IMG/VR virus record: IMGVR_UViG_3300030329_000114
Location: 1-34,999 of that record
Origin: a virus
Length of the DNA stretch: 34,999 nucleotides
Reading direction: 5' to 3' (one strand)
Made by a program: the position numbers and the translations under genes. Shown here one piece after another: positions 2,463-8,673 of this stretch (its first letter is position 1; the number at the start of each line of letters is the position of its first letter). The notes under the pieces were generated by a model, which saw nothing but the letters and a program-made list of their open reading frames with translations, had not been told where the DNA came from and searched no databases.

Positions 2463-2491
2463 TTGACAATGCGGCAAGTATTGCCTATATT
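2463..2491 (+). promoter_or_regulatory. early rightward sigma70 promoter
   Basis: A consensus -35 TTGACA (2463-2468), a 17-base spacer and a -10 TATATT (2486-2491) are present. The spacer contains a GGCAA-GTA-TTGCC inverted repeat. Transcription would start near 2498, so the RNA would begin almost exactly at the first CAACTAGCAA motif. Confidence 0.8.
2473..2485. promoter_or_regulatory. operator-like box inside the rightward promoter
   Basis: GGCAA-GTA-TTGCC is an inverted repeat with perfect five-base arms, placed between the -35 and -10 and touching the -10. A repressor bound here would block polymerase. The likely binder is one of the two HTH proteins encoded at 5293 or 7522. Confidence 0.65.
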
Positions 2492-2499
2492 ACCACTAT

Positions 2500-2516
2500 C
2501 AACTAGCAACAAGGGG
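2500..2516 (+). repeat. CAACTAGCAA linker, copy 1
   Basis: CAACTAGCAA at 2500-2509, then CAAGGGG, ahead of the ATG at 2524. It lies at the predicted 5' end of the early RNA. Confidence 0.8.
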
Positions 2517-2523
2517 CAATGAA

Positions 2524-2658
2524 ATGATTAAGTCAGACAAACTTTACAAGCTTGGCAAGTTTACCTTGTCACTCATCAAGATGCCTTGTGGCACATATGT
2601 TTTTATTAAGCATCAATCTTATGATCATATCGGTTTTAAATTGCCGTTTTGTAAATAA
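2524..2658 (+). CDS. hypothetical early protein, 44 aa
   Basis: This is the first gene of the rightward operon. It encodes a basic 44-residue protein with a hydrophobic/aromatic core and two Cys; I recognise no family. The start at 2524 is set by GGGG seven bases upstream; the ATG at 2519 gives only two codons. Two operator-like boxes lie within the coding sequence, so binding there could couple its expression to the regulator. Confidence 0.6.
   Translation: MIKSDKLYKLGKFTLSLIKMPCGTYVFIKHQSYDHIGFKLPFCK
2536..2565. promoter_or_regulatory. two further operator-like boxes in the first early gene
   Basis: GACAAACTTTACA (2536-2548) matches the leftward box at 11 of 13 bases. GGCAAGTTTACC (2554-2565) has the same arms with a two-base centre. 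Both lie within codons 5-14 of the first early gene, as downstream operators often do. Confidence 0.4.
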
Positions 2659-2662
2659 TCAT

Positions 2663-2680
2663 CAACTAGCAACAAGGAAT
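2663..2680 (+). repeat. CAACTAGCAA linker, copy 2
   Basis: CAACTAGCAA at 2663-2672 followed by CAAGGAAT and AAAACAATG; the ATG is at 2687. Confidence 0.85.
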
Positions 2681-2686
2681 AAAACA

Positions 2687-2917
2687 ATGTTCAAAGCACA
2701 TCCGAAAACAATCGCAAAACGTTTCATGATTTTATTTTTAGCGCTGTTCATTTGCGGCGTTGGCCTTGGCCTTGGCGGTTTGCTCATTATGTCAATCTGG
2801 TTACCTTCAACGATTCAATTCTGGATTGGCCTTGGCCTTTGCTTCATAGCGGTTTTCACAATCGTCTGGACTGCATTGGGGTTTATTTTCAATTTCATGG
2901 ACTATCAAAACGCCTAA
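2687..2917 (+). CDS. small membrane protein, two TM segments
   Basis: This 76-residue protein has a short basic N-terminus (KAHPKTIAKR) and two hydrophobic segments at about residues 13-39 and 44-71, both Gly-rich (GVGLGLGG, GLGLC). It is probably an inner-membrane protein made early; superinfection exclusion or membrane remodelling are possible roles. The start at 2687 follows AAGGAAT in the shared linker. The frame is open back to 2552, but that extension crosses the previous gene and the linker. I recognise no family. Confidence 0.7.
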   Translation: MFKAHPKTIAKRFMILFLALFICGVGLGLGGLLIMSIWLPSTIQFWIGLGLCFIAVFTIVWTALGFIFNFMDYQNA

Positions 2918-2918
2918 T

Positions 2919-2934
2919 CAACTAGCAAGGGAAT
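2919..2934 (+). repeat. CAACTAGCAA linker, copy 3
   Basis: CAACTAGCAA at 2919-2928 directly followed by GGGAAT; the ATG is at 2943. Confidence 0.85.
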
Positions 2935-2942
2935 AAAAGAAA

Positions 2943-3281
2943 ATGGGTAAGCTATCTTGGAAATATCAGGTCAGACGCATGATGAAAAACCACATCAAAC
3001 ACACGCAGGGCGATGACCCATTGGCACGCAAGCAAAGATTTGCCGACAACATAAAGGCAAAGGCAGAAGCAGGCTTTATATGCATTTACGCTGAGGGGCG
3101 TGACTGCGATGGCTTTGGTTGGTCTAGCAACCCATCAACGCTGCCTGCTGTGCCTACAATAGTAAATAAGTATATTGATGACGCACATGAATGGAGTGAT
3201 GGCATTATGCATCACACAATCATAAGACCTAGTGAAGTGGGCAACCCACGACACAAGGCATATGGCAACCGATATGCGTAA
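2943..3281 (+). CDS. hypothetical early protein, 112 aa
   Basis: This is a basic 112-residue protein. The N-terminus is highly charged (KYQVRRMMKNHIKHTQ); the middle holds a compact stretch with YAEGRDCDGFGWSS, and the C-terminus is rich in His. Similar small proteins occur in early regions of many phages, but I cannot assign a function. It follows the shared linker with GGGAAT as ribosome site, and another linker copy separates it from the next gene. Confidence 0.7.
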   Translation: MGKLSWKYQVRRMMKNHIKHTQGDDPLARKQRFADNIKAKAEAGFICIYAEGRDCDGFGWSSNPSTLPAVPTIVNKYIDDAHEWSDGIMHHTIIRPSEVGNPRHKAYGNRYA

Positions 3282-3283
3282 TT

Positions 3284-3316
3284 CTGCCATAGGGCAAACA
3301 ACTAGCAAAGAGGAAT
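3284..3316 (+). repeat. extended linker (CTGCCATAGGGCAAA + CAACTAGCAA), copy 4
   Basis: CAACTAGCAA at 3299-3308 is preceded by CTGCCATAGGGCAAA, which can fold as TGCC/GGCA, and followed by AGAGGAAT. The same longer block recurs at 4012-4043. The ATG is at 3323. Confidence 0.85.
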
Positions 3317-3322
3317 CAAACA

Positions 3323-3517
3323 ATGAAAATGACATGTGACAACGATTGCACATTGAATGGCTGGGTTGAGTATTTTGCAGAGTCTTTCGGACATGATGAT
3401 CTGCACATTTCAGTTGATCCGCAATCTGACCTCGATGATGTGGTTTATGCTTTTTGCCATGACACGCAAGAGATGATTAAGATTAACGGGTGGAACTTTA
3501 CATTTTACAAAGACTAA
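3323..3517 (+). CDS. hypothetical acidic early protein, 64 aa
   Basis: A small, strongly acidic protein rich in Asp and aromatic residues with three Cys (CDNDC near the start, one later). The acidic character and early position would suit a DNA-mimic or host-takeover protein, but that is only inference; no family is recognised. Its start lies 15 bases past the linker's CAACTAGCAA, with AGAGGAAT as ribosome site. Confidence 0.65.
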   Translation: MKMTCDNDCTLNGWVEYFAESFGHDDLHISVDPQSDLDDVVYAFCHDTQEMIKINGWNFTFYKD

Positions 3518-3535
3518 CAACTAGCAATAAGGAAT
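3518..3535 (+). repeat. CAACTAGCAA linker, copy 5
   Basis: CAACTAGCAA at 3518-3527, then TAAGGAAT and CAAACAATG; the start codon is at 3542. Confidence 0.85.
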
Positions 3536-3541
3536 CAAACA

Positions 3542-3778
3542 ATGTTTACAGTTTCATACTCAATTGACTACATGGACACAAATCCAACTAAAATGACATT
3601 CGACACGTTAGACGAAGCCCATGACTGGATTCATAAGGAAGTAGCGAGGCGTGTTGACTTCGCAGTCCAGCATTCAGCTTACACAATGTCAGAGACTGAA
3701 ATACAAGATTTAGAGGCCAATGAATATGCGCTTGTGTCTCTAACAGACGGCGTAGTCACAGAATTTATGTGTGTCTAA
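3542..3778 (+). CDS. hypothetical early protein, 78 aa
   Basis: This 78-residue acidic protein opens with a strand-like segment (FTVSYSIDYMD), continues with a helix containing LDEAHDWIHKEVARRVDF, and ends with a short strand (ALVSLTDGVVTEFM). No known motif is recognised. The start follows the linker's AAGGAAT ribosome site, and a diverged linker copy follows the stop. Confidence 0.65.
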   Translation: MFTVSYSIDYMDTNPTKMTFDTLDEAHDWIHKEVARRVDFAVQHSAYTMSETEIQDLEANEYALVSLTDGVVTEFMCV

Positions 3779-3779
3779 C

Positions 3780-3795
3780 TCACTAGTAAAAGGAA
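3780..3795 (+). repeat. diverged linker, copy 6 (TCACTAGTAA)
   Basis: TCACTAGTAA followed by AAGGAATC is a variant of the family with two substitutions in the core. The ribosome-site half is unchanged. The next ATG is at 3805. Confidence 0.7.
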
Positions 3796-3804
3796 TCAAA
3801 AACA

Positions 3805-3975
3805 ATGGATGAAAAAAACATATATCAAATTGCCGACACTATTCGCGAAGAATTGCAAGTGTTGAGCCAATGCGCCACGCACAGCGATTTTAATCAAGCC
3901 GCTATTCATTTTGATAATATTATGAAATTGACCAGCGACATCAAATCATATGCCGAAAAGAACCAATGGCACTGA
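3805..3975 (+). CDS. hypothetical early protein, 56 aa
   Basis: A 56-residue, mostly helical, acidic protein (MDEKNIYQIADTIREELQ at the N-terminus) with one Cys. No family is recognised. The start follows AAGGAATCAAAAACA from the shared linker family, which is the main reason to call it a gene. A seven-base-pair hairpin lies just after its stop. Confidence 0.65.
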   Translation: MDEKNIYQIADTIREELQVLSQCATHSDFNQAAIHFDNIMKLTSDIKSYAEKNQWH

Positions 3976-3994
3976 CGAGTCTTAATGAGACGAA

Positions 3995-4011
3995 ACACGG
4001 CGATGCCGTGT
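3995..4011 (+). other. intergenic hairpin
   Basis: ACACGGC-GAT-GCCGTGT forms a perfect seven-base-pair stem with a three-base loop. No T-run follows, so it is not a normal intrinsic terminator; RNA processing or stability is more likely. Confidence 0.55.
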
Positions 4012-4043
4012 CTGCCATAGGGCAAACAACTAGCAAAAGGAAT
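4012..4043 (+). repeat. extended linker, copy 7
   Basis: CTGCCATAGGGCAAACAACTAGCAAA plus AGGAAT, nearly identical to the block at 3284-3316; the core CAACTAGCAA is at 4027-4036 and the ATG at 4051. The two extended copies would be good substrates for recombination that removes the three genes between them. Confidence 0.85.
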
Positions 4044-4050
4044 CAAGACA

Positions 4051-4473
4051 ATGAAATTGCATCATTCAAAATATAAAAAGAATTACCGCGCATTTATTCT
4101 TGATCATATTGATCAGGACTATGACGGCAATGAATTGAAAACAGACAAAGCAAAGATCACATTTTTGTTTGATCGGTTTTATTCAGAATACGAATGGCGC
4201 GTAAAGCAAGTTGGTAAACGTCAAGCCATGATCGATTGGCTGTCTGGCCTTGCCTTGTCTTTGCCTTGCTACAATGGTGAGGTGATTGATTTAGCCATTG
4301 AAATGGGATCAATAGACGACAATCCATCCGATCAGCTAATTGATCGTGTGCTGGCAAATTACTTCCCATTCATGGCAAGCATAGTTTTAGATATGGAAAA
4401 GGATATTTTAGAACCAGAAAACATGGCTCTTTATCCAATAGGCCACCCGGCATTTTTAGTTGAAAAGGCATAG
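4051..4473 (+). CDS. hypothetical early protein, 140 aa
   Basis: A 140-residue, mostly helical soluble protein. The N-terminal part has YRAFILDHIDQDYDGNELKT and a FLFDRFYSEYEWR segment; the C-terminal half has LIDRVLANYFPFMASIVLDM. Proteins of this shape are common in plasmid and phage early regions, but I know no function. It is the largest gene in the rightward early cluster and follows the extended linker. The next gene has the AGGAATC ribosome site but not the CTAG core. Confidence 0.7.
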   Translation: MKLHHSKYKKNYRAFILDHIDQDYDGNELKTDKAKITFLFDRFYSEYEWRVKQVGKRQAMIDWLSGLALSLPCYNGEVIDLAIEMGSIDDNPSDQLIDRVLANYFPFMASIVLDMEKDILEPENMALYPIGHPAFLVEKA

Positions 4474-4488
4474 AGAGGAATCAAAGCA

Positions 4489-4785
4489 ATGATTTATCAA
4501 GAAATAACAGAGTCACAATTTCGAGATGCTTTTCACAACATGGGGCGTGCCGATAGTTGGTCATATCAAGGCCTTGGCGCGTTGTATGATTATATCAGCG
4601 AAAACATAGACGACTATCAATTGGATGTGATCGCGCTTGACTGTGAGTTTTGTGAGTATGCCTGTATAGATGAGTTTTTTGAAAGTTACGACTCAGAAGA
4701 CTACCCAGACATTGAAACAATCAGGAATCACACAACGCTAATTGAGGTTCCTAATTCATCATCATTTATCATAGCGGAATTTTAA
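4489..4785 (+). CDS. conserved early protein, DUF7222-like, 98 aa
   Basis: This acidic 98-residue protein matches my memory of a family widespread in phages and plasmids (DUF7222). The diagnostic parts are the N-terminal SQFRDAF, the SYQGLGALYDYISE helix and LDVIALDCEFCEY. The function is unknown; the acidity and early timing would fit an anti-host protein, but that is inference. The ribosome site is AGAGGAATCAAAGCAATG, the second half of the linker family; the CAACTAGCAA core is missing here. Confidence 0.75.
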   Translation: MIYQEITESQFRDAFHNMGRADSWSYQGLGALYDYISENIDDYQLDVIALDCEFCEYACIDEFFESYDSEDYPDIETIRNHTTLIEVPNSSSFIIAEF

Positions 4786-4786
4786 C

Positions 4787-4936
4787 ATGGCAAAGCTGTT
4801 CATATTCATCGGCTGTTTAGCCTTTATCGTCGGCGCTTCAATTGTTCCAAACACAACAAGTGCATTTGTTTTGCAAGTGGTGCTGCTATATGGTGGCCTC
4901 ATTGGGGCAGTGTGGGCTAGCATAAAAGCTTATTAA
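4787..4936 (+). CDS. two-TM miniprotein, 49 aa
   Basis: This is a very hydrophobic 49-residue protein with two predicted membrane segments (LFIFIGCLAFIVGASIV, about residues 4-20, and FVLQVVLLYGGLIGAVW, about 27-43) and a short C-terminal tail. It starts one base after the stop of the previous gene, has no linker of its own, and is probably translationally coupled. A holin- or exclusion-like role is possible but unproven. Confidence 0.65.
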   Translation: MAKLFIFIGCLAFIVGASIVPNTTSAFVLQVVLLYGGLIGAVWASIKAY

Positions 4937-5014
4937 AGCGACTAACTTTGTTTGGGCTGGTATCCTAGCCCGGGCATGACAAAGCCTGCCAGTGGGCTTT
5001 AAATCGCTGGCAAT
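4937..5014 (+). other. structured intergenic segment with two hairpins
   Basis: GGGCTGG-TAT-CCTAGCCC (about 4957-4974) and AAAGCC-TGCCAGTG-GGCTTT (about 4981-5000) are inverted repeats; the second is followed only by AAAT. It may act as a weak attenuator or RNA processing site. Confidence 0.4.
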
Positions 5015-5025
5015 CAACTAGCAAC
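5015..5025 (+). repeat. CAACTAGCAA linker, copy 8
   Basis: CAACTAGCAAC, here followed by CCAAAAGAGAGATGG instead of AGGAAT; it precedes the start at 5046. Confidence 0.8.
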
Positions 5026-5045
5026 CCAAAAGAGAGATGGCAAAA

Positions 5046-5186
5046 ATGGAAAATCTAAACACATACCAAAAGCTAGATTGGATTAGCTTTGCGATTCAAG
5101 AAGCACTCAATGGCAACAGTGGCGAATTGATGCAGGCATTAGAGCTTGTCGAGGATTTGCGCGACTTTGTTGAAATGGAAAACTAA
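5046..5186 (+). CDS. hypothetical acidic early protein, 46 aa
   Basis: A 46-residue acidic helical protein (LDWISFAIQEALNG then ELMQALELVEDLRDFVEME). No family is recognised. I prefer the ATG at 5046, with GAGAG about nine bases upstream. The in-frame ATG at 5037 would add three residues but leaves no room for a ribosome site. A linker copy precedes it and a strong hairpin follows. Confidence 0.6.
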   Translation: MENLNTYQKLDWISFAIQEALNGNSGELMQALELVEDLRDFVEMEN

Positions 5187-5188
5187 AA

Positions 5189-5224
5189 GAGAAACCGCCA
5201 AGGCATTGCGCTTTGGCGGCTCTC
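5189..5224 (+). other. strong intergenic hairpin
   Basis: CCGCCAA (5195-5201) pairs with TTGGCGG (5213-5219), and outer GAGA (5189-5192) can pair with TCTC (5221-5224). No T-run follows, so it is more likely an RNA processing or stability element than a terminator. Confidence 0.6.
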
Positions 5225-5230
5225 ACTCGT

Positions 5231-5240
5231 CAACTAGCAA
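5231..5240 (+). repeat. CAACTAGCAA linker, copy 9
   Basis: CAACTAGCAA followed by AATCAACAAGGCATGAAAACAATG. The linker points at the nine-codon frame at 5262 rather than at the HTH gene. Confidence 0.8.
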
Positions 5241-5261
5241 AATCAACAAGGCATGAAAACA

Positions 5262-5291
5262 ATGAGGTTACACATGCAGAGAGGACAATAA
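5262..5291 (+). CDS. nine-codon leader minigene
   Basis: ATG to TAA encodes MRLHMQRGQ. It is placed exactly where the linker's start codon is expected, with AAGG upstream, and ends one base before the ATG of the HTH gene. It could be a translated leader that couples or tunes HTH synthesis, or the remnant of a deleted small gene. Confidence 0.35.
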   Translation: MRLHMQRGQ

Positions 5292-5292
5292 C

Positions 5293-5511
5293 ATGGATGC
5301 AAAAAAAATCAAGCTTGAACGTCTACAATTAGGCATCAGCCAGCAAAAGATGGCAGAGAGGCTAGGCGTAACAGCACGAACAATAAGAAACTATGAGTCT
5401 GGCGAGACGCATGTGCCAGACACAGTGACCAAGCTGCACAACTGCTTAAAGAGAAACGAAATCATTGAAAGAGAAAGGGCGATGGGATGGATAACGCGCC
5501 AACATGGGTAG
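5293..5511 (+). CDS. Cro/CI-type helix-turn-helix regulator, 72 aa
   Basis: A small DNA-binding protein of the XRE/HTH_3 class. Residues 6-37 read as the five-helix fold: KLERLQLGISQQKMAERLGV, then TARTIRNYESGETHVPDTV. It has little beyond the HTH, as in Cro proteins. AGAGGA lies upstream of the ATG within the end of the minigene. It is transcribed with the early genes and is a candidate binder of the GGYAA-N3-TTRCC boxes, which would turn down early transcription. Its end overlaps the next gene by 25 bases. Confidence 0.85.
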   Translation: MDAKKIKLERLQLGISQQKMAERLGVTARTIRNYESGETHVPDTVTKLHNCLKRNEIIERERAMGWITRQHG

Positions 5512-6060: not shown

Positions 6061-6090
6061 ATACTTAGCAATGCCGCGTGGCAATATCTT

Positions 6091-6128
6091 AAAGCATAGC
6101 CTTAAAGCTTGGGCTATGCTTTTTTTTA
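6091..6128 (+). terminator. intrinsic terminator of the early rightward operon
   Basis: AAAGCATAGCC (6091-6101) and GGCTATGCTTT (6112-6122) form a perfect 11-base-pair stem with a ten-base loop, followed by an uninterrupted T-run to 6128. On the other strand only a short T-run follows, so leftward termination of the resolvase operon would be weaker. Confidence 0.93.
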
Positions 6129-7562: not shown

Positions 7563-7770
7563 TTGGTTTTACCTCACCATTGCTAGCCAATAGAATCCGA
7601 CGCATTGTTTCAGGGTTTGGATAACGCCTACCAGCTATGAAATGATTGATAGCTGACCGCGATATACCACAACGCCTAGCAAACCTAGCTTGGCTTATCC
7701 TGTTGATTTGTATATATTCTTTCAGTGTCATAACTTTTCTCAACTTTAACTGTTGACCGTTTGTAGACAT
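7522..7770 (-). CDS. helix-turn-helix regulator (CI/Cro-like), 82 aa
   Basis: The protein has one HTH_3-type domain: LKEYIQINRISQARFARRCG, then SRSAINHFIAGRRYPNPET, and a short helical C-terminus. It heads the minus-strand island and is divergent from the exonuclease operon with only 36 bases between start codons. The 82-residue form starts at 7770 (AAGG upstream). An internal ATG at 7731 giving 69 residues would better fit the usual family start. A degenerate operator-like box overlaps the intergenic space, so autoregulation is plausible. It is the second candidate binder of the boxes at 2400-2565. Confidence 0.83.
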   Translation of the reverse strand: MSTNGQQLKLRKVMTLKEYIQINRISQARFARRCGISRSAINHFIAGRRYPNPETMRRILLASNGEVKPNDFFNEAMLQVQR

Positions 7771-7781
7771 TAGGCTACCTT
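7753..7781 (+). promoter_or_regulatory. weak candidate promoter for the recombination operon
   Basis: TTGACC (7753-7758), a 17-base spacer and TACCTT (7776-7781) face the exonuclease gene. The -35 is good and the -10 poor, so an activator may be needed. GGCTACCTTACC (7773-7784) covers the -10 and resembles the operator family. Confidence 0.35.
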
Positions 7782-7784
7782 ACC
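7773..7784. promoter_or_regulatory. degenerate operator-like box between the divergent genes
   Basis: GGCTA-CC-TTACC is a relaxed match (one arm change, two-base centre) to GGYAA-N3-TTRCC. It lies three bases upstream of the repressor start and over the -10 of the candidate rightward promoter. Confidence 0.3.
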
Positions 7785-7806
7785 AGAACTAGCAGTGAGG
7801 TCAAGC

Positions 7807-8673
7807 ATGGATATTTACAAACACGATAGCGCGAGTGGCGCAACGTCACCAAAATACGAAATGATATTTAAGTTGTGGCTTAGATCGCAACACGGAATAC
7901 AGTTTCCGGATAATGCTCCTATGCTAACAGGACGTACCGTTGAGGGTGGTGTGCGCCGTGTCGAGGGATTGGAAAACTTTGACCCAGAAAAGGGCAAGCA
8001 GGAAGGTATGAGTATCGCTGAAGCTACAAGACACATGATGGCAGACTTTGATGAGTATGTGCCGCGTGATTGGGACGAAGGCAAAGACAGAGAGGAACAT
8101 GAGGCATTTAGGGAACACCTGCCTGATATGCTTGGCAACGCTCTTGAAGGCTTGAAAGCTTGGCAAAACAAACACGGCCTTAACACTGTGAACGGAGAAC
8201 ATGTAACTTGGCACTCTGTTCCAGAACTTGATGTAAAGATTATGATGTTCCGTGACTTTTATGGTAGTGATGTACTGTGCGATCTCAAATGCAAAATGCC
8301 ACAGAGAAACCCACTGAAAAAAGATGGCACACGCACATGGCGCATACCAAAGCCGGATTTGCAGCCTAGCGAAAACAATATCAAACAGATGTCAGTTTAT
8401 TGGAGAGCGACAGGTCAAAAGCCATCGTTGTTACAAGTCACTGCGTCAGGTTTTCATATCTGGGATGAAGACAACTGCGAACTGCTACAAGAGCAACATC
8501 TTGAGCAAGTCTATCAGGATGTGAAACGCAGTTGGATTACTACACAAAATTTGATTCGTGCCGCTAACGGAAACTGGCACACACTAGCTGGCCTTGTTGC
8601 CCCAGACTTTACGGAGATCGCAAGGAAACATGGGCCACACATACTCAAACTAGCGAGGGAGTTCTGGAAATGA
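7807..8673 (+). CDS. PD-(D/E)XK exonuclease (RecB/YqaJ-like)
   Basis: This is a 288-residue recombination exonuclease. The nuclease core is visible as E140-LD142, then D159-x-K161 in VLCDLKCK, followed by a QxxxY element (KQMSVYW). A GRTVEGGVRR segment near 42-51 fits the conserved N-terminal Glu helix. It would resect duplex ends so that the annealing protein at 9146 can pair strands, as lambda Exo works with Beta. I prefer the ATG at 7807 because GAGG lies six bases upstream; the GTG at 7795 adds four residues. Its stop overlaps the next start as ATGA. Confidence 0.85.
   Translation: MDIYKHDSASGATSPKYEMIFKLWLRSQHGIQFPDNAPMLTGRTVEGGVRRVEGLENFDPEKGKQEGMSIAEATRHMMADFDEYVPRDWDEGKDREEHEAFREHLPDMLGNALEGLKAWQNKHGLNTVNGEHVTWHSVPELDVKIMMFRDFYGSDVLCDLKCKMPQRNPLKKDGTRTWRIPKPDLQPSENNIKQMSVYWRATGQKPSLLQVTASGFHIWDEDNCELLQEQHLEQVYQDVKRSWITTQNLIRAANGNWHTLAGLVAPDFTEIARKHGPHILKLAREFWK

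Follow-up and report, generated by a model that had tools for sequence, protein, structure and literature searches.

The DNA analyzed here (the window; 34,999 bases, identical to the whole record, an IMG/VR-type virus contig with a G+C content of about 42%) belongs to a marine, HTVC010P-like phage. Its capsid protein is 77% to 78% identical to those of the cultured pelagiphages HTVC035P and HTVC010P, and for its portal, internal virion, and tail proteins the matches are to phage families of the same kind of podovirus. The early genes are transcribed rightward from a promoter at 2463-2491, and several are preceded by a 10-base element, CAACTAGCAA. Eight exact copies of this element are present within 2.7 kb, all on the plus strand and none elsewhere in the record, as a first-pass annotation of the sequence had reported. 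It is the commonest 10-mer of the window, and order-3 Markov genomes contain only 0 to 2 copies (mean about 0.15). In six of the eight copies the distance between the element and the ATG is exactly 14 nt (Table 1). The rarity of CTAG in bacterial DNA, which had been invoked for this motif, does not apply to this genome (97 occurrences observed, 94 expected).

Table 1 Element copies, variants, and neighboring features of the early region
Feature	Position	Strand	Remarks
Early promoter, TTGACA-17 nt-TATATT	2463..2491	+	Consensus scan, 11/12 matches; predicted start at first element
Element copy 1	2500..2509	+	14 nt to ATG 2524
Element copy 2	2663..2672	+	14 nt to ATG 2687
Element copy 3	2919..2928	+	14 nt to ATG 2943
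TCTGCCATAGGGCAAA	3283..3298	+	Matches hammerhead region from 2 nt before cut onward; ribozyme body missing
Element copy 4	3299..3308	+	14 nt to ATG 3323
Element copy 5	3518..3527	+	14 nt to ATG 3542
Variant TCACTAGTAA	3780..3789	+	15 nt to ATG 3805
Putative hammerhead ribozyme	3966..4018	+	Open stem I; stems of 6/4/7 bp; core CUGACGA, GAAA, GUC; predicted cut 4012^4013
Hairpin TGCC-ATAG-GGCA	4013..4024	+	Predicted 5' end of cleaved mRNA; TGTC...GACA in relatives
Element copy 6	4027..4036	+	14 nt past predicted cut, 14 nt to ATG 4051
AGGAATCAAAGCA	4476..4488	+	Ribosome-site half of leader without CTAG half (repeat comparison); precedes ATG 4489
Pseudoknot-like module, AAAGCC/GGCTTT + TGCCAG/CTGGCA	4981..5012	+	Precedes copy 7; also conserved in relatives
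Element copy 7	5015..5024	+	12 nt to ATG 5037 or 21 nt to 5046
Hairpin CCGCCAAggcattgcgctTTGGCGG	5195..5219	+	Ahead of copy 8; similar hairpins in relatives
Element copy 8	5231..5240	+	12 nt to 12-codon open reading frame (5253), then helix-turn-helix gene (5293)
Terminator-like hairpin and T run	6091..6122	+	Closes early operon
Second early promoter, TTGACC-17 nt-TACCTT	within 7753..7795	+	Ahead of exonuclease gene
Variant GAACTAGCAG (7786) with second early promoter	7753..7795	+	Ahead of exonuclease gene, ATG 7807
Variant AAACTAGCGA	8647..8656	+	Within 3' end of exonuclease gene, ahead of ATG 8670

Degenerate copies extend the family. The variant at 3780 differs from the element at three of ten bases and is placed alike, and the start at 4489 does retain the second half of the leader only, both as first described. 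The copy announced before the exonuclease gene is present, but it reads GAACTAGCAG and begins at 7786; several relatives have CAACTAGCAA at this site. The following gene is headed by AAACTAGCGA, where most relatives read AAACTAGCAA.

To place these copies in a wider context, we compared about 100 loci of relatives gathered by two protein searches (loci are designated L with a number). Among 270 distinct ACTAGCA sites in these loci, 180 (67%) are followed by a Shine-Dalgarno sequence and the start of an open reading frame, compared with 2% to 23% for 24 permuted 7-mers, so that the motif is not equally common away from starts. These sites head 77 clusters of downstream proteins; the invariance of the ACTAGCA core itself is set by the search pattern. 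Close relatives carry CAACTAGCAA ahead of many early genes, and a single gene family may follow a promoter, a ribozyme, a pseudoknot module, or a bare stop codon with the leader retained. A second group of relatives uses ACACTAGCAAAA instead, and the leaders of more distant groups are CAACAACAAAAGGATC, TAACAACAA, TTGGAGGGTTA, and GAAAGGATCA. Homologues of gene 3542 thus bear CAACTAGCAA in the window, TTGGAGGGTTA in L230 and L236, and GAAAGGATCA in L233, while those of gene 4051 bear CAACTAGCAA in the window, ACACTAGCAAAA in L176, and CAACAACAAAAGGATC in L209. Since homologous genes bear different leaders according to lineage, the leader follows the genome and not the gene, and its lineage specificity is evident from the sequences compared. 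Relatives that keep the genes and lose the motif occur across lineages only, with another leader in its place.

At 3966-4018, ahead of the sixth copy, the sequence specifies an RNA with every feature expected of a self-cutting hammerhead. The sequence, ATGGCA-CTGACGA-GTCTTAATGAGAC-GAA-ACACGGCGATGCCGTGT-C^TGCCAT, forms stems I, II, and III around a complete core, with CUGANGA, GAAA, the A15.1-U16.1 pair, and H before the cut at position 17, and its minimum-free-energy fold is the hammerhead. An E-value scan with Rfam identifies the same interval as Hammerhead_1 (RF00163) with 26.4 bits and an E-value of 0.0031. A covariance model that was derived from the sequences of 18 other viruses and excluded the window gives the window RNA 44.2 bits and a rough E-value of 1.8e-10 in 844 kb, and also recovers seven relatives. 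Among the window and seven relatives, six pairs changed on both sides and 100% are paired (87% in shuffles and 26% to 38% in shifted registers), and 11 of 16 pairs covary in the 18 other viruses; because both sets were picked for having stems, the percentage paired is biased. The upstream gene (3805-3975) ends within the hammerhead, its stop codon (3973-3975) being the UGA of CUGA. While the structure is evident in the sequence, cleavage in the cell would be the expected consequence.

The hammerhead also accounts for a second repeat, the CTGCCATAGGGCAAA block that the first-pass annotation had noted upstream of two element copies. The block does occur twice, at 3283-3298 and at 4011-4026, but it is part of a hammerhead and not of the leader, which that annotation had missed. 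At 4011-4026 it comprises the 3' strand of stem I and the bases that follow, and the stretch at 3283-3298 appears to be a leftover fragment from the post-cleavage side of a hammerhead unit that has no ribozyme body.

Hammerheads of this type form a virus-specific subtype. The pattern CTGANGAGNCTTNATGAGNCGAAAC is present in 105 viral stretches, and 257 Gb of cellular genomes gave no match to it; a looser hammerhead pattern does match in cellular genomes, showing that the cellular scan works. Conservation of loop II in this set is partly fixed by the search pattern. An ATG open reading frame lies within 90 nt of the cut in 72 of 75 distinct well-formed hammerheads (median 32 nt), compared with 38% at random positions, and the preceding gene typically ends within the hammerhead or right next to it (stop codon at a median of -1 nt). 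Tandem arrays of four to six hammerheads precede successive genes of uncultured viruses (L319, L255, L336, L248, and L321), and L278 and other loci likewise have hammerhead arrays. Leaders such as CAACTACAAGGGAAA and CAACAACAAGGAAACAAAAC come after the hammerheads in L319, L255, and L336; the array in L319 has no DNA match among cultured phages. Other viruses pair hammerheads of the subtype with leaders of their own, and related phages share the arrangement of the window.

We suggest that the early genes share a standard leader, in which CAACTAGCAA forms the upstream half and is followed by an A/G-rich Shine-Dalgarno sequence of the AGGAAT type, an A-rich spacer, and the ATG. The most probable interpretation, and one we hold with some confidence, is that it is a start-associated translation leader located at or near mRNA 5' ends that are produced by promoters or by ribozyme cleavage. 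The element would act at the RNA level by keeping the ribosome-binding region single-stranded, and would probably be recognized in a lineage-specific manner. By the promoter route, early mRNA would begin at the element (2500 and 7786), placing the leader at or near the 5' end; the predicted start of the 2463-2491 promoter indeed coincides with the first copy, as had been proposed. By the ribozyme route, the hammerhead would cut between 4012 and 4013, just ahead of the leader, trimming the message, and the 3' strand of stem I (CTGCCATAGGGCAAA) could then refold into a 5' hairpin. In the remaining cistrons the leader would lie directly past the preceding stop codon or past another folded module.

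Several lines of evidence point to translation initiation, namely the fixed distance to the start codon, the location at predicted transcript starts, the copy within coding sequence at 8647 just ahead of another start, and retention before unrelated genes. The earlier suggestion of a shared translation-control or RNA element is thereby supported indirectly, by spacing, start enrichment, orientation, opening energy, and this retention. The positions and spacing of the element are read directly from the sequence; an effect on translation and recognition by a factor are inferred. The energy needed to open the region from -20 to +12 is 5.57 kcal/mol for native leaders, compared with 5.88 when the element is shuffled (p = 0.015) and 6.82 when it is replaced by a random 10-mer (p = 2e-10).

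A number of observations weigh against this interpretation. Base composition explains most of the gain in opening energy, so that the conserved CTAG would call for specific recognition, and no trans-acting partner for the leader was found. The element had been described as preceding nearly every early gene, but this is true chiefly of the first seven; genes 4787, 5487, and 5743 are without it, and 4489 has AGGAATCAAAGCA only. An intact ribozyme lies ahead of just one of the eight exact copies. With 26.4 bits, the window hammerhead does not reach the curated Rfam cut-off (34 bits), and a scan at the gathering threshold finds no hammerhead in the window or in 14 loci with such RNAs (94 kb from relatives and other viruses). 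Further, the loci are fragments, often short, with mechanical gene calls, and related sequences among them are not independent.

A stronger version of the proposal would describe a virus-wide early-mRNA format, in which promoters, or intercistronic hammerheads overlapping the stop codon of the gene before, make the 5' ends, a single lineage-specific leader is read by a matching phage factor that controls early translation, and ribosomes ending on the upstream gene can block folding of the ribozyme. We put this forward tentatively, as the less likely extension of the translation leader. A related and rather unlikely alternative, itself one form of an RNA-level element, is that an RNA-binding protein or nuclease of the phage targets the leader and so switches off the early genes jointly, as RegA or RegB do in phage T4. 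That early genes alone carry the element would suit such a target, as would the T and G kept in the ACTAGCA core, which pure A/C openness does not need; however, the invariance of that core reflects the search pattern, and no candidate protein was identified.

The element might instead be a recombination seam, kept since short homology would allow the phage exonuclease and annealing proteins to shuffle early genes, as the first-pass annotation had proposed in parallel. Unrelated genes do adjoin one another at the element (of the homologous pairs, 114 share the downstream side only, 383 the upstream side only, and 151 both sides), the same gene is found behind a promoter, a ribozyme, or a stop codon, and in pairs that share only the downstream gene, sequences that are 0.90 identical within the element are only approximately 0.25 to 0.37 identical just upstream. 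However, pairs with homologous downstream genes also share the upstream side in 24% of cases at element-less starts and in 58% at starts with the element, and the converse values, for upstream-homologous pairs that share the downstream side, are 35% and 37%. Element-less starts in the same regions are thus no less mosaic, which argues that the element is not a favored breakpoint in the data compared, and the control led us to reject a seam as its main function. A seam would also require neither the fixed 14-nt spacing to the ATG nor the association with a Shine-Dalgarno sequence, 10 bp is a very short homology, and lineages with different leaders have the same genes. Shuffling at the element therefore receives no specific support, and as an explanation for its conservation we consider it improbable.

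Least probable is a binding site for a repressor that controls early transcription at the DNA level, comparable to the stoperators of cluster A mycobacteriophages. An asymmetric, lineage-specific element in one orientation, with many copies in short intergenic gaps and two at predicted transcription starts, would fit such a site, but its position is locked to the Shine-Dalgarno sequence and start codon, it is retained in coding sequence just before a start (8647), and the promoters carry a palindrome of their own. An antisense RNA complementary to the element was also considered and rejected; the reverse strand holds no exact match, and near matches are in structural genes only.

The promoter layout is common to the relatives, in which the element lies 4 or 8 nt past the -10 box in 21 of 25 cases. 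In the window the spacer between the -35 and -10 boxes contains the palindrome GGCAAgtaTTGCC (2469-2485), which looks like an operator. It varies among relatives (L017, L026, L159, and L189) and is often still palindromic (GGAAAgtaTTTCC, GGCAAGtCTTGCC), and arm lengths exceed those of shuffles in part of the promoters. For the pseudoknot-like module at 4981-5012 of the window, Rfam gives no match at E<=5. The module contains an invariant AAATCGC, is also present in L010, L012, L017, L025, L030, L169, and L230, and precedes the leader of another lineage as well. A three-hairpin module with covarying-looking stems, CGGCTGGCACGG-GCAA-CCGTGCC ... GCGGCG-N-GCCGANAACGC, is present in L015 (1-80), L154, L227, L230, and L234, directly 5' of start leaders in two lineages, and is possibly a further ribozyme or regulator. 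Between copy 8 and the helix-turn-helix gene at 5293, the 12-codon open reading frame at 5253-5291 (MKTMRLHMQRGQ) overlaps the ribosome site of that gene and is possibly a leader peptide. At the end of the early operon (6061-6122 in the window), ACTAGCAATGCCGCGTGGCA precedes the terminator in L015, L018, L028, and L030, suggesting that non-coding 3' segments, too, can start with the element. In low-G+C relatives, clustered ATTGCATGCTATGAAT repeats occupy the gap past the early genes (L218, 9661-9790; L222, 3103-3210).

Taken together, the claims of the first-pass annotation are partly supported, and the proposed arrangement links two kinds of elements that have so far been described apart, start-associated repeats of phages and gene-flanking hammerheads. 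It places a hammerhead subtype of many uncultured viruses, missed by the standard RNA library at its curated cut-off, as a set of intercistronic cutters, and offers a direct test of what natural hammerheads may provide to phages, namely mRNAs whose 5' leaders are defined. The lineage-specific leaders on homologous genes are a natural experiment for finding their reader. In the limited literature searched, we did not find the combination of leader and hammerhead, the virus-specific subtype, or the stop-codon overlap.

Cultured HTVC010P-like pelagiphages (HTVC010P, HTVC034P, and HTVC035P) resemble the window phage in their nuclease and annealing genes and in having early genes that adjoin the terminase. 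They differ in that neither a hammerhead nor a comparable leader was found in the three genomes; these phages were therefore rejected as carriers, and no DNA match to the early region was found among cultured relatives. The nearest kind to the element is the Start-Associated Sequences (SAS, and the related ESAS) of cluster K mycobacteriophages (PMC3203893, PMC12699233). Like SAS, the element is a short asymmetric repeat in one orientation, found a few nucleotides before the starts of varied, unrelated gene families that are non-structural only, with an extra upstream block in a subset and with abundance and sequence that vary between subgroups. It is not a cluster K SAS in the strict sense, because its consensus is ACTAGCA and it lies upstream of a separate Shine-Dalgarno sequence, whereas the SAS consensus GGGATAGGAGCCC contains one. 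In ESAS the additional block, a 17-bp inverted repeat, shows departures that give no support for RNA pairing (PMC3203893, PMC12699233), while the extra block of the window is part of a covarying ribozyme, and both the phages and the sequence are unrelated. Perreault et al. (2011, PMC3088659) described gene-flanking hammerheads in prophages and phages and proposed that they cut long phage transcripts into gene-length mRNAs; the HHphage of haloviruses HF1 and HF2 is separated by 13 nt from the start codon downstream of it. The hammerheads described here share with these (PMC3088659; RF00163) the canonical core, three stems, and occurrence of several per region. They differ in stem-loop II (GNCUUNAUGAGNC, absent in 257 Gb of cellular genomes), in the overlap with a stop codon, in scoring below the Rfam cut-off, and, in the phage group of the window, in being followed by a shared gene-start leader.

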